Shown: one piece after another, positions 1,320 to 17,220 of the stretch | Position numbering within the stretch: the first letter of the stretch is position 1 | How the letters are laid out: every line of letters starts with the position of its first letter | Source: Desulfuromonas sp. | GTDB lineage: Bacteria > Desulfobacterota > Desulfuromonadia > Desulfuromonadales > Geopsychrobacteraceae | DNA length: 37,381 nucleotides | Reading direction: 5' to 3' | NCBI GenBank assembly: GCA_002869695.1 | Contig: PKUD01000056.1 | Span: 1 to 37,381, forward strand | Translations under genes and position numbers: made by a program | Notes under the pieces: model-generated | What the model was told of the DNA's origin: nothing | Seen by the model: the letters and a program-made list of their open reading frames with translations, nothing else | Databases searched by the model: none

Positions 1320-1333
1320 CCGGGGAGAGAACC

Positions 1334-2023
1334 ATGCATGTCTCACAGCTCAAGCCGCTACGCGATGCCGATGTTCGACACTTCATCTACACCCGTTTTG
1401 CGGTCAGCGCCCGCCCGCCAGGCAGCGGCGAAATCGCTGAACACTTCTCCGGCAGCATCGCCCAAATCGAAAAATCCCTGACCCGTCTGGCCGATGCCCA
1501 TCAGATTGTGCTCGCCCCCGGCTCCCATGCGATCTGGATGGCCCATCCCTTCTCCGCCATCCCGACCAACTACATCACCGAAGTCGGTGGTAAAAAGTAC
1601 TGGGGAAACTGAATCTGGGATCTCTTCGGCATCTCGGCGATAATGCAGCAAGAGGCCAGAGGGCATGCCCCGTGCGGGTGTGGCGAGTGCGATGCAAAAC
1701 TGGACCTGACCTTTCGGCCCAATCAGCCGCCCCAGTCTGACTGGCTGGTACACTTCGTGGTCCCGGCCAAGTATTTCTGGGACGACATCGGCTACACCTG
1801 AGCGACCATCCTCCCCTTCAGTTCGAAGGCCCATCTCGAAAACTGGCTGACCAGGCGAAATCTCTCCCCCGGCTACGACATGCCTATCCAAACCTGCTGG
1901 GAGCTCGCCCAAAAATGGTATGCCGACCGCCTTGAGCGGGACTGGCAACGTCCGGATGCGGGAAAAATCCGCAAAATTTTTGTTAGTCTTGGACTGGAAG
2001 ACCAATTCTGGAATCTTTTCTGA
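1334..2023 (+). CDS. MerB-like alkylmercury lyase family protein, candidate double-selenocysteine protein
   Basis: One frame runs from the ATG at 1334 (preceded by GGGGAGAG) to a TGA at 2021, 229 codons, if TGA at codons 93 and 156 is read as Sec. The N-terminal ~75 residues look like a winged-helix region. The rest matches the alkylmercury lyase family: HPFSAIP, then VGGKKYW, U93-I-W-D96, CGCGEC, VVPAKYFWDD, U156, and a conserved tail ending LGL-x4-FW. In MerB the catalytic residues are Cys96, Asp99 and Cys159; here U93, D96 and U156 keep identical spacing. Apart from the two TGAs the frame has no stop and keeps family-like sequence throughout, which argues against a pseudogene. MerB cleaves the C-Hg bond and hands over Hg(II). 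No merR, merA or merT is nearby, so the substrate is uncertain. The alternative is a gene with two independent nonsense mutations at its two catalytic cysteines. Confidence 0.85.
1610..1612 (+). other. In-frame TGA, predicted Sec codon 93 (MerB Cys96 position)
   Basis: The TGA falls where MerB-family proteins have the first catalytic cysteine, followed by two residues and the conserved Asp (here I-W-D). The frame continues with family-like sequence on both sides. A cysteine-to-TGA change needs only the third base (TGC or TGT to TGA), so an independent mutation is possible, but two such changes at both catalytic positions would be a coincidence. Confidence 0.8.
1621..1655 (+). promoter_or_regulatory. 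SECIS-like hairpin after Sec codon 93
   Basis: A two-part fold can be drawn here. The lower stem pairs CTCTT (1622-1626) with AAGAG (1650-1654), plus a possible U-G pair at 1621/1655. The upper stem pairs GCAT (1629-1632) with ATGC (1643-1646) around a ten-base loop that contains GG. The loop starts 20 nt after the TGA, within the range known for bacterial SECIS elements. The loop does not open with G, so this is the weaker of the two SECIS candidates in this gene. Confidence 0.45.
1799..1801 (+). other. In-frame TGA, predicted Sec codon 156 (MerB Cys159 position)
   Basis: The TGA follows W-D-D-I-G-Y-T and precedes A-T-I-L-P-F. In MerB-family proteins the residue at this point, after the Asp-Asp-aromatic stretch, is the second catalytic cysteine. 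It lies 63 codons after the first TGA, the same separation as Cys96 and Cys159 in MerB. Confidence 0.8.
1815..1829 (+). promoter_or_regulatory. SECIS-like hairpin after Sec codon 156
   Basis: CCTTC (1815-1819) pairs perfectly with GAAGG (1825-1829) around the loop AGTTC. The loop begins 18 nt after the TGA and has G as its second base followed by T. This fits the usual bacterial SECIS rule of a short stem, a small loop with an early G, and roughly 16-37 nt from the UGA. Confidence 0.55.
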
Positions 2024-2071: not shown

Positions 2072-3238
2072 ATGGGCCATCATCTTGGCAGCAAGAGCAG
2101 TATTGTTCCGCTGATCGACCGGCTGAACAAGTACCCGATCGGCCTGGTGGACAACGAAAAGCTGCGGCAGATTCTGGCGATCCTCTTTACCGAGGAGGAA
2201 GCCTATATCGCCTCGCGCTTCCCGCTGGAAGAAGCGACCCTGGCGGAACTCGCCAGGGTCACCGAAGTGGACGAGACGCGCCTGGAGCCAATTCTCAATG
2301 TCATGGCCGACAAGGGGCTGGTCATGGACCTGCCCTACGGCAAACAGACCTACTACCTGCTGATGCCGGGTCTGATCGGTTTTTTCGAGTTCACCTTCAT
2401 GAAACAGCGCGCCGATCTTCCGGTGGCGGAACTGGCCCGGCTGATGCACGAGTACCTGCACGACGATCCGCAGACCGGCCAGGCGAAAGAGTTCTTCGGC
2501 AGCAAAACCCAGTTGACCCGCGCCATCCCCTACGATGAACATATCCCGGTGAGTTCTACCGTAACGACCCATGAAAGCGCCCGCGAGATCATCAAGAACG
2601 CGACGTTCGGTGCAGTGGGCATGTGCTACTGCAGGCATAAGAAAGAGCATCTCGGCGAAACCTGTAAAAAAGGTGCACCGCTGGAAAATATCTGTATATC
2701 CCTCGGCACCGGGGCCAGGTTTCTGGCCAGGCGCGGTTTTGCCGAGCAGAAAAGTACCGAGGAACTGCTGGCGATCATCGATCGGGCCCACGAACTCAAC
2801 CTGACTCATATCACCGATAACATCCGCCACCAGCCTTCTTTCATCTGCAACTGCTGCTCCTGCTGCTGTGAACTGCTGGCCGGCATCCACGAGGGTTACA
2901 GTGAAGGCGTCGCCAAGGCAAATTTTATCGTGCATGTCGATGCAGAGTCCTGTACCGATTGTGGTCTCTGCACCCAGGCCTGCAATGCCAAAGCTCTTGA
3001 ACTCCGTGAAGCGAATAAAAAGAAACTGAAGGTCCTGGAAAAGGTCTGTCTCGGCTGCGGGGCCTGTATCAGCAGTTGTCCCAGTAGTGCCCTGTCGCTG
3101 GTTCCGATGCAGCGACCCGACCCGCCGCACAAGAAGAAGGATCTGTTTTTCAGCATTCTGAAAGAGAAGAAGCGGCTCAAGCCATTTGTGGTCGGACGGG
3201 TGAAGAAGACCTTGCGCAAACCGTTTGCCAAAAGCTGA
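2072..3238 (+). CDS. 4Fe-4S dicluster protein with N-terminal winged-helix-like domain
   Basis: 388 residues. The first ~110 look like a winged-helix module (helices with T-L-A-E-L-A-R-V and a Y-G-K-Q-T-Y-Y-L-L wing-like strand). The middle carries unusual cysteine clusters: C-Y-C-R-H-K-K-E-H-L-G-E-T-C and C-N-C-C-S-C-C-C. Near the C-terminus are two ferredoxin motifs, C-x2-C-x2-C-x3-C (CTDCGLCTQAC) and CLGCGACISSCP. The tail is Lys/Arg-rich. It begins 48 nt after the MerB-like gene on the same strand and may share its transcript. The layout matches 4Fe-4S proteins common in anaerobic Deltaproteobacteria. It probably carries electrons or acts as a redox-sensing regulator. The specific role is not known. 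Confidence 0.9.
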   Translation: MGHHLGSKSSIVPLIDRLNKYPIGLVDNEKLRQILAILFTEEEAYIASRFPLEEATLAELARVTEVDETRLEPILNVMADKGLVMDLPYGKQTYYLLMPGLIGFFEFTFMKQRADLPVAELARLMHEYLHDDPQTGQAKEFFGSKTQLTRAIPYDEHIPVSSTVTTHESAREIIKNATFGAVGMCYCRHKKEHLGETCKKGAPLENICISLGTGARFLARRGFAEQKSTEELLAIIDRAHELNLTHITDNIRHQPSFICNCCSCCCELLAGIHEGYSEGVAKANFIVHVDAESCTDCGLCTQACNAKALELREANKKKLKVLEKVCLGCGACISSCPSSALSLVPMQRPDPPHKKKDLFFSILKEKKRLKPFVVGRVKKTLRKPFAKS

Positions 3239-9504: not shown

Positions 9505-10575
9505 TCATTTGAGTGAGGGGAACCGTAGCCAGATGCGGGTCAATCCGTCGCTGCTTTCCGCACCGACCTGACCGCCGTGTGCTTCAACCAGCTCCCTGAC
9601 GATGGAGAGACCGATGCCGGCGCCACCATGCTCGCGCGAGCGGGAACGGTCGGCGCGGAAGAATCGCTCAAAGATAAAAGGCAGGTCGCCTGCTGCGATC
9701 CCTTCACCGCTGTTACTCACTGACAGTTCAACCCCGTTAGCCAGCTGCCCCCCCCGGATGGTCACCGCGCCCCCCTGCGGGGTATAGCGCAGGGCGTTTT
9801 CCAGCAGGTTGCGCAACGCCTGGAGCAACTTGTCGAGATCGGCATGAACGGACAGATCCGGCGGATCGATCGCCACCTGGACACGGATCTCTTTAGTCTG
9901 CAGCCGCAGCTCGAACAGGCTGAGCAGTTGCTCAACCAGGGTTGAGACCGAGAGGTCCCGACGTTTCAGGAAAGCCTTGGCCGATTCGGCCTTGGTCAAC
10001 TGCTGCAGGTCATCGACCAGATGCACCAGGCGCAGAATTTCACTCTCCAGCATCCGAAAGGTTTTCTGCGAGGGGGGCACCACCGCATCACTGAGACCTT
10101 CCAGGTAGCCGCGCAGGTTGGTCAACGGAGTGCGCAGTTCGTGGGCCACGTCAGTGACCATGTTCTTGCGCAGCTGTTCCAGCCGTTCCAGCCCGTCGGC
10201 CATCCGGTTAAAGGCATCCCCGAGCTGACCTACCTCGTCCCTGGTAACAACTTCGACCCGACTGGAAAAATGACCGGCGGCCAGCTCGCGGGAGATCCGG
10301 GTCATCTGCGTAAGTGGCCGCAGCACCCGCTTAGTCATCAGATAGCTGAGCAGCAGGGCCAGCGCCAGCGCTGCCAATGCCGCCCAGAGCAGGTACCGGT
10401 GCACCGCCTCGATAAACATCTGGTGGCTGTCGTGCGGCGCGATCTCGTAGTTCTCCATCAGCCGCATGAAATAAACCGCAGCCAGGTTGTCGATCGCCAG
10501 CCAGACCACCAGGATGGTCACACCGATCACCGGCACGATGTTGAGCAGCAGTTTCCACAACAGTCTGTTTTTCAT
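9505..10575 (-). CDS. Membrane sensor histidine kinase
   Basis: Start set at the ATG 10575 (M-K-N-R-L-L-W-K-L-L), because the 16 extra codons back to a GTG at 10623 fall in the flanking repeat and are not membrane-like. It has two membrane segments (about 8-30 and 58-80) flanking a short ~27-residue periplasmic loop. A HAMP domain follows, then HisKA with D-V-A-H-E-L-R-T-P-L-T-N-L-R-G-Y, and an ATPase domain (N-L-L-E-N-A-L-R-Y, G-E-G-I, F-F-R-A-D-R-S-R). The short sensor loop and BaeS-like core suggest envelope-stress or metal sensing. It is paired with the response regulator gene upstream on the same strand, separated by 159 bp that hold a repeat. Confidence 0.93.
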   Translation of the reverse strand: MKNRLLWKLLLNIVPVIGVTILVVWLAIDNLAAVYFMRLMENYEIAPHDSHQMFIEAVHRYLLWAALAALALALLLSYLMTKRVLRPLTQMTRISRELAAGHFSSRVEVVTRDEVGQLGDAFNRMADGLERLEQLRKNMVTDVAHELRTPLTNLRGYLEGLSDAVVPPSQKTFRMLESEILRLVHLVDDLQQLTKAESAKAFLKRRDLSVSTLVEQLLSLFELRLQTKEIRVQVAIDPPDLSVHADLDKLLQALRNLLENALRYTPQGGAVTIRGGQLANGVELSVSNSGEGIAAGDLPFIFERFFRADRSRSREHGGAGIGLSIVRELVEAHGGQVGAESSDGLTRIWLRFPSLK

Positions 10576-10618
10576 AGACGATCCAAAGTCAAAATCTGTC
10601 TCACGCCTGTTCGCTCTG

Positions 10619-10723
10619 CTCACTCAAGTCGCAAAGGCACTAAGAGAATCTAAACCCCGTGTGATGGGTGAAAACAAAAAATCTTTTTTGTCTTTCTTTG
10701 CGTCTTCGCGGTTTTGCGTGAGG
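10619..10723. repeat. Dispersed CGCAAAG-type intergenic repeat
   Basis: About 105 bp between the response regulator and histidine kinase genes. The ends are inverted (CTCAC at 10619-10623, GTGAG at 10718-10722). Both halves carry the elements GTCGCAAAGGC and, inverted, TTTGCGTC and TTTTGCG. Such CGCAAAG repeats recur in intergenic DNA of many bacteria. No second copy lies in this window. Confidence 0.55.
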
Positions 10724-10734
10724 AGGATTTGATC

Positions 10735-11433
10735 TTAATCCATTTCCGCAAACCGGTAACCAAACCCGCGCACCGTCTCGATATAAACCGGCCTGGCTGG
10801 ATCGGGCTCGATCTTCTGTCGCAGTTTGTTGACGTGGACATCGATAACCCGGTCAACCACCGCTTCTTCATGCAGATAGAAATGGCGCAGCAGTTCACTG
10901 CGGCTGAAGACCCGGCCGGGCGAGGCCATCAGGGTGTAGAGCAGCTTGAATTCGGAACCGGTCAAGCTGATCACCTGACCATCACGACTGACCTTATGTT
11001 TTTCCGGATCGAGTTGAAGACCACTATGCTCGAGCAATGCCTTGGCCGGAGAGGCTGCCGGCCGCGCCCGGCGCAGGATCGCCTTGACCCTTTCCACGAG
11101 TTCGCGTGGACTGAATGGCTTCACCACATAGTCGTCGGCACCGAGACTGAAGCCGAGGACCCGGTCGATCTCCTCCTCGCGGGCGGTGAGCATCAGGATC
11201 GGCACCTCGGACTCACTGCGCAGAGAACGGCAGATTTCCAGACCGTCGACCTCGGGCAACATAACATCCAGGATCACTAGATCCAGTTCTGCACTGCGCG
11301 CCGTCTGCAGCCCGCGCTGGCCATCGTGCTCGACCAGGGTGACAAACCCTTCACGCTGCAGATAGGTCTCGATCAGATTCGACGTGTTACGGTCATCCTC
11401 GACAATCAGGATTCTGCGCAGTGTTTCATTCAT
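10735..11433 (-). CDS. OmpR-family response regulator
   Basis: 232 residues. The receiver domain spans 1-120, with the acidic pair E-D-D near 11-13, the phosphoacceptor Asp in L-V-I-L-D-V-M-L-P, Thr in M-L-T-A-R-E, and Lys in V-V-K-P-F-S. A winged-helix effector follows (L-T-G-S-E-F-K-L-L, R-V-I-D-V-H-V-N-K-L-R-Q-K-I, T-V-R-G-F-G-Y-R-F). It is the partner of the histidine kinase downstream. Proteins of this family bind 11-bp direct repeats, such as those upstream of the Sec protein-msrB operon 2 kb away, but that link is only inferred. Confidence 0.95.
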   Translation of the reverse strand: MNETLRRILIVEDDRNTSNLIETYLQREGFVTLVEHDGQRGLQTARSAELDLVILDVMLPEVDGLEICRSLRSESEVPILMLTAREEEIDRVLGFSLGADDYVVKPFSPRELVERVKAILRRARPAASPAKALLEHSGLQLDPEKHKVSRDGQVISLTGSEFKLLYTLMASPGRVFSRSELLRHFYLHEEAVVDRVIDVHVNKLRQKIEPDPARPVYIETVRGFGYRFAEMD

Positions 11434-11593
11434 GGCAGCTCCTTATTTTATCGCCAATCCGCTGCTCTTTCCCATGACTGCTGAGAAGAGATAATAACCT
11501 TGGTCTGTGAACCGAAATTGGGTGAAATGAGAATAATCATCGCCAAGCATCATCTCCACCTTCTCCGCGACCGAACAAACCCCTTAAAGCATA

Positions 11594-12001
11594 TCAGATC
11601 AATCCCAGCGCCCGTTTCATCTCATCCGCTATCGCCACCGGCTTACCCCGCTTTTCATCAAAACAGACCATCACCGTGCTTGCTTCGGCGAAGGTCGTCC
11701 CCTGCCCATCATGTACCAGGTAACCCAGAGTGAAACTGGTCCGCCGGGACTTTTCCAGCTGCATTGTGACGATCACCTGGCCGTTAAGATCCACCGGCTT
11801 CAGATAACGGCATTCAGCCTGAACGATCATCAGCAACAGCCTCCGGCCCATCAGTTCAAGAAAGGGTTCCTTGAAAACAAGAGTTCTGGCCGTTTCGAGA
11901 AAGGTGAAAAAGGTGGCGTGATTAACATGCCCGTAAGCATCCAGGTCGGCAAACCGAACCTGGATTTCAGTTGAAAAGTCCACTCCGATTATCTCCCGCA
12001 A
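11594..12001 (-). CDS. Acyl-CoA thioesterase, YbgC/4HBT hotdog family
   Basis: 135 residues, full hotdog length. It has the catalytic signature V-R-F-A-D-L-D-A-Y-G-H-V-N-H-A near residues 15-29 (Asp nucleophile or base in D-A-Y-G-H-V-N) and the following F-x-x-F-L-E-T-A-R helix. It probably hydrolyses short or medium acyl-CoA, or supports envelope lipid turnover. It is cytoplasmic. It is on the same strand as the two-component genes but 160 bp apart, so co-transcription is uncertain. Confidence 0.9.
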   Translation of the reverse strand: MREIIGVDFSTEIQVRFADLDAYGHVNHATFFTFLETARTLVFKEPFLELMGRRLLLMIVQAECRYLKPVDLNGQVIVTMQLEKSRRTSFTLGYLVHDGQGTTFAEASTVMVCFDEKRGKPVAIADEMKRALGLI

Positions 12002-12146
12002 GCAAAAAAATGGTCATTTATCATCTACCCCGTCGCTACAGTATGACTCAGCTTCCTGATCAAGAAAACCATTCCTTCGGCAAACGATTCCCCGCAAGAG
12101 AGAAAGTTCACCCCTGATCAGGCTATCGCCCTGAAAAACAAAACAT

Positions 12147-12175
12147 TTGACAATTTCTCCCACCTATTTTAAAAC
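12147..12175 (+). promoter_or_regulatory. Probable sigma-70 promoter of rnfABCDGE
   Basis: A consensus -35 TTGACA (12147-12152) is followed after 17 nt by TAAAAC (or after 16 nt by TTAAAA). The rnfA start codon is about 40 bp further on. Confidence 0.55.
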
Positions 12176-12215
12176 AACTGGTCTTACCATTTTTAAAATC
12201 CTCGGGAGTTTTTCA

Positions 12216-12797
12216 ATGTTTGAACTGTTTCTGATTTTGATCAGCGCGGTTTTTGTCAACAACTTCGTGCTGGCCCGCTTCCTCGGTATCTGCCCGTTTC
12301 TGGGGGTATCGAAGAAGGTTGAGACGGCACTCGGTATGGGCATGGCGGTTATTTTCGTCATGACCGTTGCTTCCGTGGTCACTTGGTTTATTCAGTATCT
12401 GATTCTGATTCCTTTCGGTATCGAGTACCTCCAGACGATCGCTTTCATCCTGGTCATCGCCTCGCTGGTCCAGCTGGTGGAGATGGTGATACAGAAGACC
12501 AGCCCGGTCCTCTACCAGTCGCTCGGTATATTCCTGCCTCTGATTACCACCAACTGTGCGGTCCTCGGCGTCGCAGTTCTGAATATCCAGAAGAGTTACA
12601 ACTTCCTCGAATCGGTCGTTTTTGCCCTGGGCGCGGGCCTGGGCTTTACCCTGGCCATGGTCCTGTTCGCCGGCCTGCGTGAACGCACCGATCTCTGCCC
12701 GGTACCGAAAAGCTTCCAGGGCACCGCACTGGCCCTGGTCACCGCCGGCCTGCTCTCCCTGGCATTCATGGGATTTGCCGGTTTGGTCAAAGGGTAA
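12216..12797 (+). CDS. rnfA: Rnf complex subunit RnfA
   Basis: 193 residues, six membrane helices. First subunit of the Na+ or H+-translocating ferredoxin:NAD+ oxidoreductase. Typical features are the early [19 protein letters not shown] and the mid-protein [10 protein letters not shown]. RnfA and RnfE are inverted-topology homologues that hold a membrane [2Fe-2S] cluster through these conserved cysteines. The ATG at 12216 follows CGGGAG and gives the usual M-F-E-L-F-L-I-L start. The frame is open 23 codons upstream, but that overlaps the promoter. Confidence 0.96.
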
Positions 12798-12815
12798 TCA
12801 AGAGAGTTATGCAGC

Positions 12816-12838
12816 GGGGAGTCGCTCCCCTGTTTTTT
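12816..12838 (+). terminator. Terminator-like hairpin between rnfA and rnfB
   Basis: GGGGAG (12816-12821) pairs perfectly with CTCCCC (12825-12830) around TCG. This is followed by TGTTTTTT, which runs into the rnfB ribosome site. The downstream genes depend on passing it, so it may attenuate, set stoichiometry or protect the rnfA message. Confidence 0.65.
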
Positions 12839-12848
12839 GGAGTCAAAG

Positions 12849-13697
12849 ATGCTTGCAGCAGTATTAAGTCTCGGTGGCATCGGCCTGGTCGCGGCAGCGG
12901 CTCTAGGGGTCGCCGCCAAAAAGTTTGCCGTTGAGGTTGATCCGCGCGAAGCAGCGATCCTCGAGATCCTGCCTGGTGCCAACTGCGGCGCCTGCGGTCT
13001 GCCCGGCTGCTCCGGCTACGCCAAGGGGGTTGTCGATGGCAGTATCGCACCCAACCTCTGTACCCCGGGCGGCAGCGACACGGTGGAAAAGATTGCCCAT
13101 ATCCTCGGCGTTGAGGCGATCACCGCCGAGCCAAAGGTTGCCGTTGTCTTCTGCCAGGGAGACAACAGCAAGGCCACCGAAAAATACCGCTACCTCGGGC
13201 TGCAAGACTGCAATGCCGCCCAGAAAATTGCCGATGGGCCGAAATCCTGTCCCGGCGGCTGCCTCGGTCTGGGCACCTGCGAGCGGGTGTGCCCGTTCGG
13301 CGCCATCGAGATTACCGCTGAGGGTCTGGCTGTCATCAGCCGCGAAAAATGCACCGGTTGCGAGAAGTGTGTTGGGGTCTGCCCACGTAAGGTGATCCGC
13401 ATGGCCCCCCTTGAAGCCACGACCCATGTCCTCTGCAACAGCCACGACAAGGGCGCGCTGGTGCGCAAATACTGTCAGGTCGGCTGCATCGCCTGTACCA
13501 TCTGCAAAAAGAACGCGCCGGAAGCCTACCAGATCGAAAACTTCCTGGCCGAAGTCATCTACGAGAAGCACAGCGAAGCAGCCGGGGTGCTGGAGAAATG
13601 TCCGACCAAGTGCATCCGGGATTTCACCACCGGCTACCCTGAAGGCAGCAGTTTTGCGCCGCCAACCGTACCGGTCACACCGGCCCAGAACGATTGA
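12849..13697 (+). CDS. rnfB: Rnf complex ferredoxin subunit RnfB
   Basis: 282 residues. An N-terminal membrane anchor (about 3-25) is followed by the RnfB cluster motif C46-x2-C49-x4-C54-x16-C71. Next come several 4Fe-4S motifs: C-E-R-V-C-P-F-G-A-I, C-T-G-C-E-K-C-V-G-V-C-P, and a further C-Q-V-G-C-I-A-C-T-I-C-K-K set with C-P-T-K-C near the end. RnfB takes electrons from reduced ferredoxin and feeds the membrane subunits. The ATG at 12849 is preferred over a TTG four codons upstream, with TTGGAG as ribosome site. Confidence 0.96.
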   Translation: MLAAVLSLGGIGLVAAAALGVAAKKFAVEVDPREAAILEILPGANCGACGLPGCSGYAKGVVDGSIAPNLCTPGGSDTVEKIAHILGVEAITAEPKVAVVFCQGDNSKATEKYRYLGLQDCNAAQKIADGPKSCPGGCLGLGTCERVCPFGAIEITAEGLAVISREKCTGCEKCVGVCPRKVIRMAPLEATTHVLCNSHDKGALVRKYCQVGCIACTICKKNAPEAYQIENFLAEVIYEKHSEAAGVLEKCPTKCIRDFTTGYPEGSSFAPPTVPVTPAQND

Positions 13698-13711
13698 GAG
13701 GCCCTGATTTT

Positions 13712-15031
13712 ATGAACCTGAAAACCTTCGCCGGCGGGCTGCATCCGCCGGACGGCAAACATTATTCAGCACACTGCCCCATCGAAAGCTGTCCGCTGCC
13801 TGATGAATTGATTATCCCCCTGTCCCAGCATATCGGGGCTCCTGCTGCTGCATGTGTCGCAGTGGGCGATCAGGTTAAAAAGGGCCAGGTTATCGCTGAC
13901 GCCAAAGGCTTTGTCTCGGTACCGATCCACGCCTCTACGTCCGGCGAAGTTATTGCCGTCGAACCGCGCCTGCACCCGATGGGCAAAGCCCTGCCGGCGG
14001 TTGTCATCAGGCCGGACGGAGAAGACTGCTGGGATGCATCGTTGCAGGGTGCTGACCCGGCAAACTTAAGTGTCGATGAGCTGAAAGATCGGATCCGTGC
14101 AGCCGGTATTGTCGGGATGGGTGGCGCGACCTTCCCGACCCATGTCAAACTCTCTCCGCCGGAAGAGAAGAAGATTGATACTCTGATCATCAACGGCGTC
14201 GAGTGCGAACCCTTCCTCACCGCCGATCACCGATTGATGCTCGAGCAGAGCGAACGGCTGCTCGACGGCATTGAAATCCTGCGCAAGGTTCTCGGCATCG
14301 AGAGGACGGTAATCGGCATTGAGGCCAACAAGCCTGACGCCATCGAAAAGTTGACTCAGGAAGGCGCCGCCCGCAACATCGAGGTTCAGGCGCTCGAGGT
14401 CAAATATCCGCAGGGTGCGGAAAAACAGTTGATCGATGCGCTGACCGGACGCCAGGTCCCGTCCGGGACGCTGCCGATGGAAGTCGGCGTCGTCGTCCAG
14501 AACGTCGGCACTGCCGCCGCGGTCAGTGATGCGATCCGCCATGGGCACCCATTGGTGGAACGGGTGGCAACCGTCACCGGCCCAGGGGTTCATGCTCCCA
14601 AAAATCTGCTGATCCGTATCGGAACACCTCTGCGACATATGGTTGAGCAGTGTGGCGGCCTCAATGGTGACCCGGCCAAGATCATCATGGGCGGGCCGAT
14701 GATGGGCCAGACCCAGTTGTCTCTGGACATTCCTGCGATTCGCGGGACCTCCGGCCTGCTGATCTTTCGTCGCGAGGATCTGCCAACACGCCTGGAGGCA
14801 GGACCCTGTATCCGTTGCGGACGCTGTATCGGCGTCTGCCCGATCCATCTTCAGCCGACCACCATCGCCGCCTATGCCCGCCTCGACATGATCGACGAGG
14901 CTGAGGGTTACCATGCCCTCGACTGTATCGAATGCGGCTGCTGTACTTATATCTGCCCGGCGACCCTGCCGCTGGTTCAGTCGATCCGCCACGCCAAGGG
15001 CGGTATCATGGCCAAGAAAAGGACGATCTGA
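13712..15031 (+). CDS. rnfC: Rnf complex NADH/FMN subunit RnfC
   Basis: 439 residues, peripheral subunit that exchanges electrons with NAD(H). Visible features are an N-terminal G-G-L-H-P-P-D-G-K, a barrel-sandwich region near 50-90 (G-D-x-V-K-K-G-Q), the flavin-site motif G-M-G-G-A-T-F-P-T near residue 140, and I-I-N-G-V-E-C-E-P. Two C-terminal 4Fe-4S motifs follow, C-I-R-C-G-R-C-I-G-V-C-P and C-I-E-C-G-C-C-T-Y-I-C-P. It lacks the long Ala/Lys-rich C-terminal extension of some gammaproteobacterial RnfC proteins. The ATG at 13712 follows GAGG. The stop is one base before the rnfD GTG. Confidence 0.95.
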   Translation: MNLKTFAGGLHPPDGKHYSAHCPIESCPLPDELIIPLSQHIGAPAAACVAVGDQVKKGQVIADAKGFVSVPIHASTSGEVIAVEPRLHPMGKALPAVVIRPDGEDCWDASLQGADPANLSVDELKDRIRAAGIVGMGGATFPTHVKLSPPEEKKIDTLIINGVECEPFLTADHRLMLEQSERLLDGIEILRKVLGIERTVIGIEANKPDAIEKLTQEGAARNIEVQALEVKYPQGAEKQLIDALTGRQVPSGTLPMEVGVVVQNVGTAAAVSDAIRHGHPLVERVATVTGPGVHAPKNLLIRIGTPLRHMVEQCGGLNGDPAKIIMGGPMMGQTQLSLDIPAIRGTSGLLIFRREDLPTRLEAGPCIRCGRCIGVCPIHLQPTTIAAYARLDMIDEAEGYHALDCIECGCCTYICPATLPLVQSIRHAKGGIMAKKRTI

Positions 15032-15032
15032 C

Positions 15033-16028
15033 GTGGACAACCAGCTGTATCTGTCATCTTCGCCCCACATTCACAGCGGCTAAACCACCGACAAGGTGAT
15101 GCGCATGGTGATCTACGCCCTGCTCCCTGCCTGTGCGGTTTCCATTTATTTTTTCGGCGTGCCCGCCTTGAGCGTGCTGCTCATCTGCACCCTCGGATGT
15201 GTTGCCGCGGAGGCGATCTGCTGCAAGGTCATGGGGCGCAAGATGACCCTGGCCGACGGCAGTGCCGCCCTGACCGGCATCCTGCTCGCCCTCAACCTGC
15301 CACCGTCCGCCCCCTGGTGGATGTCTCTGTTCGGCGCCTTCATCGCCATCCTGATCGGCAAACAGGTTTACGGCGGCCTCGGCTACAATCCGTTCAACCC
15401 CGCACTGGTGGCGCGGGTTGTCCTGCTGATTTCATTCCCGGTACAGATGACCACCTGGACCGCACCGGCCCCGATCGGCTCGGGTCTTGACGCGGTCACC
15501 ACGGCCACCCCGCTGGGTGAGATGAAAACGGCAGTGATGCTCACCGGGAAACTTCCGGAACTGGCCACCAGCGGCTTCAGCAACTATCTGACCGGAAATA
15601 TGGGCGGCTGCCTCGGGGAAGTCTCCGCCCTCGCGCTGCTGATCGGCGGCCTCTACCTGCTCTATAAAAAAATCATTACCTGGCACACCCCGGTGAGCTT
15701 TGCCGGGACTGTCATCATCATCGGCGGGATCTTCTGGCTGATCGACCCGACCAAATATCCCAGCCCTCTCTTTCACCTGCTGACCGGCGGTCTCATACTC
15801 GGGGTCTTTTTCATGGCCACCGACATGGTGTCCTCTCCGGTGACCGACAAGGGGATGCTGATTTTCGGCTTCGGCTGCGGACTGATCACCGTGCTGATCC
15901 GCCTGTTCGGCGGCTACCCGGAGGGCGTCTCTTTCGCTATCCTGTTGATGAATGCCGCGACGCCGCTGATCGACCGTTATACCCGGCCGAAGATCTTCGG
16001 GCAGATTGAGCAGGAGGCGAAATCATGA
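15033..16028 (+). CDS. rnfD: Rnf complex subunit RnfD, with an in-frame TAA at codon 17
   Basis: The conserved RnfD N-terminus V-D-N-Q-L-Y-L-S-S-S-P-H-I-H-S-G is present from a GTG at 15033. A TAA at 15081-15083 then interrupts it, where homologues usually have an acidic residue (S-G-E-S/T). The same frame continues T-T-D-K-V-M-R-M-V to a normal end at 16028, with membrane helices and the flavinylation-type motif V-T-T-A-T-P-L-G. A restart at GTG 15096 or ATG 15105 (AAGGTG six bases before it) would lose the N-terminal stretch but no helix. This is a G-to-T nonsense change, a sequencing error, or a real shortened start. The stop overlaps rnfG (ATGA). Confidence 0.9.
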
Positions 16029-16630
16029 TGAAAGATATGAGTCGCCTGCTGATCACCTTGACCCTGATCGCCGCCGGAGCCGGCCTGATCCTCTCCATGG
16101 TGGAGAGCGTCACCCGCGAACCGATCAAGGAACAGCGCCGCCTGCAGATGCTCAAAGCGCTCAGTGCGGTGCTGCCGGAATTCAACAACAGTCCTGATAC
16201 CGATATCGTCAGCCTGGAGAACGGAGTCGACAAAAAAGGCAATCCGGTCGAGGTTCTCTTCTACCGTGCCCGCAAGGATGGGGAGATCGTCGGAACTGCC
16301 TTCACCGTCGTCGCACCGGACGGCTACAGCGGCAACATCGCCGTAATGGTCGGCCTCAAACCTGACCAGAGCGTCAACGCCATCGAAATTCTCGCCCATG
16401 CTGAAACCCCTGGACTGGGGAGCAAGATAGAGGACCCCGTGTTCAAGGATATCTTCAAAGGGAAGAGCCTGGATAATGCCGACTGGCGGGTGAAGAAAGA
16501 CGGCGGTGAATTCGACCAGATCACCGGAGCCACCATCTCGCCGCGAGCAATTGTCGGTGCGGTGAAAAAGGGGCTGGAGTTCTACCGCGAGAACCGGCAG
16601 AAGATTCTGGCCGAAGGAGGTCAGCAATGA
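16025..16630 (+). CDS. rnfG: Rnf complex FMN-binding subunit RnfG
   Basis: 201 residues, with an N-terminal membrane anchor (about 8-25) and a periplasmic FMN-binding domain. The covalent-FMN motif T-G-A-T-I-S-P-R-A-I-V lies near residue 170. E-T-P-G-L-G-S-K-I-E-D-P before it is also typical. It transfers electrons across the membrane with RnfD. It overlaps rnfD by 4 nt and rnfE by 4 nt, showing tight coupling. Confidence 0.95.
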   Translation: MMKDMSRLLITLTLIAAGAGLILSMVESVTREPIKEQRRLQMLKALSAVLPEFNNSPDTDIVSLENGVDKKGNPVEVLFYRARKDGEIVGTAFTVVAPDGYSGNIAVMVGLKPDQSVNAIEILAHAETPGLGSKIEDPVFKDIFKGKSLDNADWRVKKDGGEFDQITGATISPRAIVGAVKKGLEFYRENRQKILAEGGQQ

Positions 16631-17220
16631 GCCTGGGCAAAGAATTCATCAAAGGGATCTGGAAAGAGAATGCTGTCTTCAAGCTGCTGCTCGGCATGTG
16701 TCCGGTCCTGGCGGTCACCACCAGCGCAGAGAACGGCCTGGGGATGGGACTTGCCTCGACCTTCGTGCTGGTCTGTTCGAATATCGTCGTCGCTCTGCTG
16801 CGGAAACTGATTCCATCCAAGGTGCGGATTCCGGCCTTTATTATCATCATCGCCACCTTCGTCACCGTGGTGCAGCTCAGCATGGAAGCCTGGGTCTACG
16901 ACCTCTACCAGGCGCTCGGCATCTTTATCCCGCTGATCGTGGTCAACTGCCTGATTCTCGGCCGGGCGGAGGCATTCGCCTCAAAACGACCGGTGCTTGA
17001 TGCCGCCGTTGATGGAACCGGGATGGGCCTCGGTTTCACCCTGGCACTTTTTATCCTCGGAGCCGTCCGGGAGATTTTCGGTTCCGGTGAAATTCTCGGC
17101 TTCGCACTTTTCGGACCAGGTTACCAGCCGGTTCTGCTGATGATCCTCCCGCCGGGCGCGTTTATCTCGCTGGGCTTGTTGCTGGCGGCGATGAACAAGT
17201 TTGAGGCGCGAAAAAGCTGA
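16627..17220 (+). CDS. rnfE: Rnf complex subunit RnfE
   Basis: 197 residues, six membrane helices, paralogue of RnfA. Diagnostic stretches are G-I-W-K-E-N-A-V-F-K-L-L-L-G-M-C-P-V-L-A-V, I-V-V-N-C-L-I-L-G-R-A-E-A-F-A and G-M-G-L-G-F-T-L. The conserved Cys residues help hold the membrane [2Fe-2S] centre with RnfA. It is the last gene of the operon and is followed by a strong terminator. Confidence 0.95.
   Translation: MSLGKEFIKGIWKENAVFKLLLGMCPVLAVTTSAENGLGMGLASTFVLVCSNIVVALLRKLIPSKVRIPAFIIIIATFVTVVQLSMEAWVYDLYQALGIFIPLIVVNCLILGRAEAFASKRPVLDAAVDGTGMGLGFTLALFILGAVREIFGSGEILGFALFGPGYQPVLLMILPPGAFISLGLLLAAMNKFEARKS

Follow-up and report, generated by a model that had tools for sequence, protein, structure and literature searches.

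The available part of PMC8261052 treats Cys96, Asp99 and Cys159 as strictly conserved in MerB and asks how MerB catalysis could proceed without MerA as the metal acceptor. In the accessible sections of a 2026 review (PMC13188914), which gives 119 prokaryotic selenoprotein families or subfamilies, the MerB-like entry is SaoL, with one selenocysteine (Sec) in a CU motif, and PMC9312934, in the portion available, lists an alkylmercury lyase MerB-like protein. Those sections of the review also contain the NF041115 metal-binding protein (UxxU), which resembles the protein described here in carrying two Sec per chain and, by its name, in handling metal, but proteins of this type belong to other families and have the Sec pair in a short motif rather than 63 residues apart. 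Among the titles and abstract openings of the literature on selenocysteine or selenoproteins together with MerB, SaoL or organomercurials, we found no double-Sec MerB, and two papers by Haft cited in PMC13188914 may mention one. In these sources, a single-Sec MerB relative (SaoL) is already in print, and a description of the double-Sec form was not found.

A MerB-like gene with two internal TGA codons

The window, by which we mean the whole stretch of 37,381 nt that was analysed, contains a gene at 1334-2023 (plus strand) for a 229-residue MerB-fold double-Sec protein, as judged from the reading frame, Pfam, alignment and homologs; the gene and its product are called the window gene and the window protein below. 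The frame runs from an ATG at 1334 to its own terminal stop, a TGA at 2021-2023, and the only internal stops are two TGA codons, codon 93 (1610-1612) and codon 156 (1799-1801). A sequence just upstream of the ATG, GGGGAG (1322-1327, plus strand), is a probable ribosome-binding site, and an antisense ORF of 231 aa (1358-2053), for which we came upon no support, overlaps the gene. With TGA read as Sec, the window protein matched the Pfam MerB family (PF03243) with 71.4 bits (cut-off 27) over residues 73-196, a segment that spans both TGAs. Profile alignment with MerB R831b (PDB 1s6l), together with a check of the numbering, and the codon alignment for the TGAs, placed Sec93, Asp96 (codon 96, 1619-1621) and Sec156 in the columns of Cys96, Asp99 and Cys159; the metal-ligand columns 96 and 159 therefore hold Sec in place of Cys, and column 99 holds Asp. 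An earlier note, made from the letters of this DNA, had proposed the 229-codon frame with TGA at codons 93 and 156, membership of the MerB family, catalytic Cys in both TGA columns of MerB, and a constant offset of three between the residues of this protein and those of MerB; the reading frame, the Pfam score and the alignment to 1s6l bear out all four. A structure prediction from the window protein and one homolog only (L022) was poor, with a mean pLDDT of 37.9.

The window protein shares with canonical MerB (PDB 1s6l, 5c17) the Pfam domain and columns 96, 99 and 159, but differs from it in having Sec for both Cys, a CGCGEC motif and a C-terminal extension past the MerB domain. The motif (C114, C116 and C119; 1673-1690, plus strand), a candidate metal relay, was found in the proteins of group 1 (defined below), with the variant CGCGDC in L037. 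Membership of the canonical MerB equivalog NF009710 was rejected at 20.1 bits, far under the cut-off of 193. SaoL, too, is related to MerB and has Sec in column 159, but its single Sec lies in a CU motif, Cys96 is kept and it belongs to another clade of the tree; the window protein, in which the second site reads TU and column 96 holds a further Sec, does not show the CU/single-Sec pattern and scored 18.5 bits against the SaoL model (NF040728, cut-off 140). None of five double-Sec proteins that were compared with NCBIfam reached the cut-off of a model. The same genome also carries a second MerB relative, L004 9494-10138 on contig C148, in which a TGA directly follows a Cys codon and which is a SaoL-type single-Sec gene by NCBIfam (169 bits, cut-off 140). 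This gene is followed by a long ORF (10188-12683) with iron-sulfur-like Cys motifs and, by eye, membrane segments.

Conservation of the TGA pair in homologs

We found exactly two in-frame TGAs in all 56 distinct homologs that were extracted, one from each of 56 genomes. In a codon alignment of the first 30 homologs, the TGAs occupied the same two columns and no others, and in the protein alignment with 1s6l, Sec stood at 96 and 159 in 56 of 56, including L121, whose N-terminal part is about 20 residues short. The TGAs were 63 codons apart in seven genes, the window gene among them (group 1), and 65-68 codons apart in the other 49 (group 2). For example, L022, from a Desulfobacterales MAG, was 61% identical to the window protein; its two TGAs lie at the same codons, and further internal stops are absent.

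The same pair predominated in the genome searches, in which all stops were read through and counted, so that Cys forms could be found, and the queries were the Sec forms and two Cys forms in alignment A3. Four of 195 relatives of the genome under study matched the window protein, that genome included, the other three matches being weak (two with one TGA and one without TGA). In the class of L022, 31 of 389 genomes matched, and 30 of 33 match rows had two TGAs, one of them with an additional TAA that is the gene end. The window's own class (277 genomes) is a different one, since that of L022 holds more than 389; here 17 of 277 genomes matched, all five rows above 190 bits had two TGAs, and the remaining rows comprised L100 (188 bits, one TGA) and 13 weaker ones that were SaoL-like or MerB-like. 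Across the phylum, 43 of 395 genomes matched, and all 27 rows above 150 bits had two TGAs, to which one row adds a TAG. Genomes reached via L022 are listed without kinship, and a check of the listed selB genes found no pair of genomes with the same selB position and score.

Outside the 56 stand four rows with a double TGA (G801:C177, G746:C100, which also has a TAG, G746:C133 and G740:C123), a contig-end copy that has double Sec when read (G536:C87, which is L070), a fragment with one TGA (G536:C347), a fragment without TGA (L040), a weak match without TGA (G246) and three fragmentary or broken genes (L124, L126 and L127). The copies in G1024:C115, G1036:C33 and G746:C100, which are split over frames or contain a TAG, may represent decayed genes or assembly faults.

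Selection was examined in the segments before, between and after the TGAs. Comparing the window gene with the other six group-1 genes gave pN/pS values of 0.35-0.49 upstream of the first TGA, 0.31-0.42 between the two and 0.26-0.56 downstream of the second, figures that are rough because synonymous sites were near saturation; for six closer pairs of group 2, dN/dS could be computed in 17 of 18 segments and was 0.04-0.26 there. These ratios indicate selection on all three segments of the protein.

Two in-frame TGAs, and the few broken copies elsewhere (the three just named), are what one would expect if the gene were a decayed merB with TGAs arisen as chance nonsense mutations. The same pair was present in 56 of 56 homologs, however, selection continues past both TGAs, and the codons that follow them are locked (see below), so that we reject a pseudogene and consider such decay very improbable. 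The earlier note had likewise argued against random decay, and the conservation in the same columns together with the continued selection agrees with it; the TGA pair for which it suggested searching related genomes recurred in 55 homologs from other genomes, without another internal stop. This recurrence excludes a sequencing error, and the scattered frameshifts and stops in close relatives that the note named as contrary evidence were not seen, the few broken copies being in other genomes. Judging from the sequences, the MerB family includes a genuine double-Sec branch that has been conserved.

Selenocysteine machinery and constraint on the codons after the TGAs

Profile matches to selA (594 bits), selB (368 bits) and selD (355 bits) were located on contig C196 of the same genome, and a tRNA-Sec with 76.6 bits on contig C182 (gathering score 47, a threshold passed by 5 of 14 control genomes), so that all four components for which the earlier note advised looking are present. 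The selD gene (L003 514-1569, minus strand, on C196), located beside selB and selA, is itself a selenoprotein gene with a TGA at codon 16. SelB exceeded the cut-off in 50 of the 56 double-Sec carriers, leaving six without it, compared with 176 of 198 genomes of the phylum, which is no enrichment and uninformative. No second TGA-interrupted selenoprotein gene was recognized in the window in a scan by eye, which was non-exhaustive, the overlap filter hiding even the window gene. The frames would also be open under any other sense reading of TGA, as with a reassigned code or plain readthrough that inserts another residue, but TGA terminates both the window gene and the preceding GGDEF gene and is thus an ordinary stop here too, the genome has the Sec machinery with a Sec-type selD, and it is Cys that takes the place of Sec in relatives. 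A reassigned code was rejected on these grounds, and we give very little credence to UGA being read as any residue other than Sec.

Putative SECIS-like hairpins follow both TGAs. The first (1623-1662, plus strand) derives from the group-1 consensus, with arms at +13 to +23 and +42 to +52, three of its pairs failing in two or three of the seven group-1 genes; the second, CCUUC-AGUUC-GAAGG (1815-1829, plus strand), is paired in all seven. Their loop and distance may resemble those of the SECIS element of Escherichia coli formate dehydrogenase. In consensus folding with alifold in 27-nt windows, the first and second TGAs ranked 7 and 2 of 186 positions in group 2, and 38 and 8 of 167 in group 1; in 57-nt windows, where neighbouring windows holding the same hairpin were tied or ahead, the ranks were 5 and 36 of 194 in group 1, and 27 and 12 of 199 in group 2. 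In folding energies of individual genes, the window gene's own hairpins were no more stable than shuffled sequences (z of -0.11 and 0.21; -0.65 and -1.00 when cut shorter), those of L022 had z values of -3.68 and -1.03, and single 48-nt hairpins were weak over 30 genes, with mean percentiles of 0.29 and 0.31. A search of Rfam with 1300-2100 returned no match up to E 5.

At conserved residues with four- or sixfold codons in 23 group-2 genes, mean codon identity was 0.79 in the seven columns lying 3-11 codons past a TGA, compared with 0.32 in 36 columns elsewhere (Mann-Whitney p 1.6e-4); the same test in group 1 gave 0.50 (4 columns) versus 0.31 (49 columns), with p 0.03. After the second TGA of group 2, Arg at +7 was encoded by CGG and Ser at +8 by TCG in 49 of 49 genes, although CGG accounts for 22% of Arg codons and TCG for 16% of Ser codons elsewhere. 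The hairpin loop here was GGUC in all 49, and after the first TGA it was GGUC in 34 and AGUC, CGUG or AGUU in 15. This lock on Arg and Ser codons within a hairpin loop is consistent with the requirement of a SECIS element. At PCGCGEC (1670-1681), outside the SECIS stretches tested, the Pro codon CCG and a Gly codon GGG were invariant in all seven group-1 genes, possibly reflecting a further RNA constraint.

Cysteine relatives, gene neighbourhood and possible function

The nearest Cys forms found were two Cys/Cys homologs on plasmids of Paraburkholderia (L023, 33% identity) and Sphingomonas (L024, 31%), aligned over 95% of the query. Like the window protein, they fall on the same branch of the tree as group 1, but they have Cys in both metal-ligand columns, Cys at the Asp99 column and no CGCGEC motif. 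Longer Cys/Cys relatives of MerB (L125, L128, L129 and L130), with Glu at the Asp99 column, were akin to group 2. L100, from genome G609, is group-1-like, with Cys at the first site and Sec at the second; in the alignment with 1s6l, column 159 is written as Cys for L100 and the SaoL rows, the codon in the DNA being TGA. The genome of L100 also has a double-Sec gene of group 2 (L087). In a tree of 51 proteins, group 1, group 2 and SaoL each lay on one side of a well-supported branch, and the window protein paired with L037, from the class of L022, which suggests gene transfer between the classes. Conservation in 56 of 56 homologs, the machinery, the selection, the codon lock and the existence of Cys/Cys and Cys/Sec relatives all argue for the central proposal of the earlier note, and codons 93 and 156 almost certainly both encode Sec.

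No conserved operon was detected across the family in 20 stretches, the window and the SaoL locus. The widest cluster of neighbours (8 loci) consisted of paralogs resembling sensor kinases and regulators, whose position varied, and flanking genes were shared in one pair of group 2, L071 and L074. Downstream of the window gene, 48 nt from its 3' end, lies a gene (2072-3238, plus strand) for a protein with an HTH-like N-terminus, a CNCCSCCC motif and two [4Fe-4S] sites, possibly a partner of the double-Sec protein. A homolog of it (E 3e-40) is encoded 790 nt from the gene of L038, a member of group 1, a relative of the CNCCSCCC-type protein of L038 lies 1.0 kb from the gene of L039, and a CNCCSCCC-type protein was present at 4.4 kb in L075 of group 2. 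We recognized no mer genes in the window, whose ORFs were read by eye with Pfam searches of three neighbours and whose contig begins 1.3 kb upstream of the gene, and relatives of the window protein were not found on viral contigs. Farther away, 12147-17220 resembles an Rnf electron-transport gene cluster in our reading of the ORFs.

The data as a whole may be best explained by a double-Sec selenoprotein of the MerB fold that catalyses carbon-mercury or other carbon-metal cleavage with two selenolate ligands, an explanation that we consider reasonably probable. In such an enzyme, SelB and tRNA-Sec would decode the two UGAs, each with a SECIS-like hairpin downstream; one selenolate would capture R-Hg+ or another organometal, as in MerB, the second would also bind the metal, and Asp96 (Glu in group 2) would donate a proton, with release of the hydrocarbon. 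The tightly held metal could then move to the CGCGEC/CxxC cysteines close by, from which sulfide or an acceptor protein would take it over; these cysteines and the adjacent CNCCSCCC [4Fe-4S] protein are candidate metal acceptors. In anaerobic cells, the likely substrate would be methylmercury or another organomercurial. The Asp99 column holds Asp in 7 of 7 group-1 proteins, Glu in 48 of 49 group-2 proteins and Cys in the plasmid Cys/Cys forms, so that proton transfer may differ among them.

Cleavage of a carbon-metal bond by the window protein is deduced from the MerB family and the active-site columns, and we regard it as somewhat more probable than its absence. A double-Sec MerB-fold protein might instead be a selenol redox enzyme, or a protein for metal(loid) binding or relay, which would be in keeping with a solo gene lacking conserved neighbours, the Glu in place of Asp99 throughout nearly all of group 2, the extra Cys motifs and the fact that the known Sec relative SaoL is itself merely presumed to be an organometallic lyase. 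However, Sec, Asp or Glu, and Sec fill the three catalytic columns of MerB at the spacing of a metal site, and Asp is kept throughout group 1; a role without cleavage is a possibility of some weight that we do not expect to prevail.

If the lyase reading is correct, replacement of both metal-binding Cys of a metal-cleaving enzyme by Sec would be a striking use of selenium, and one that is not rare, the double-Sec form having been extracted from 56 genomes. A gene caller that ends the frame at the first UGA would leave a stub of about 92 residues that lacks the metal site, so that annotation would show such genes poorly, and surveys of annotated proteins for Cys96, Asp99 and Cys159 would tend to miss the double-Sec form. 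We tentatively raise the possibility, on balance a doubtful one, that these genes constitute a widespread family of bis-Sec organomercurial lyases in bacteria related to sulfate reducers, and that they explain part of the methylmercury demethylation in anaerobes that lack canonical merB. If methylmercury is cleaved, they would provide testable genes for demethylation by anaerobes, and a family in which one active site occurs with Cys/Cys, with Cys/Sec and with Sec/Sec offers a natural test of the contribution of selenium.
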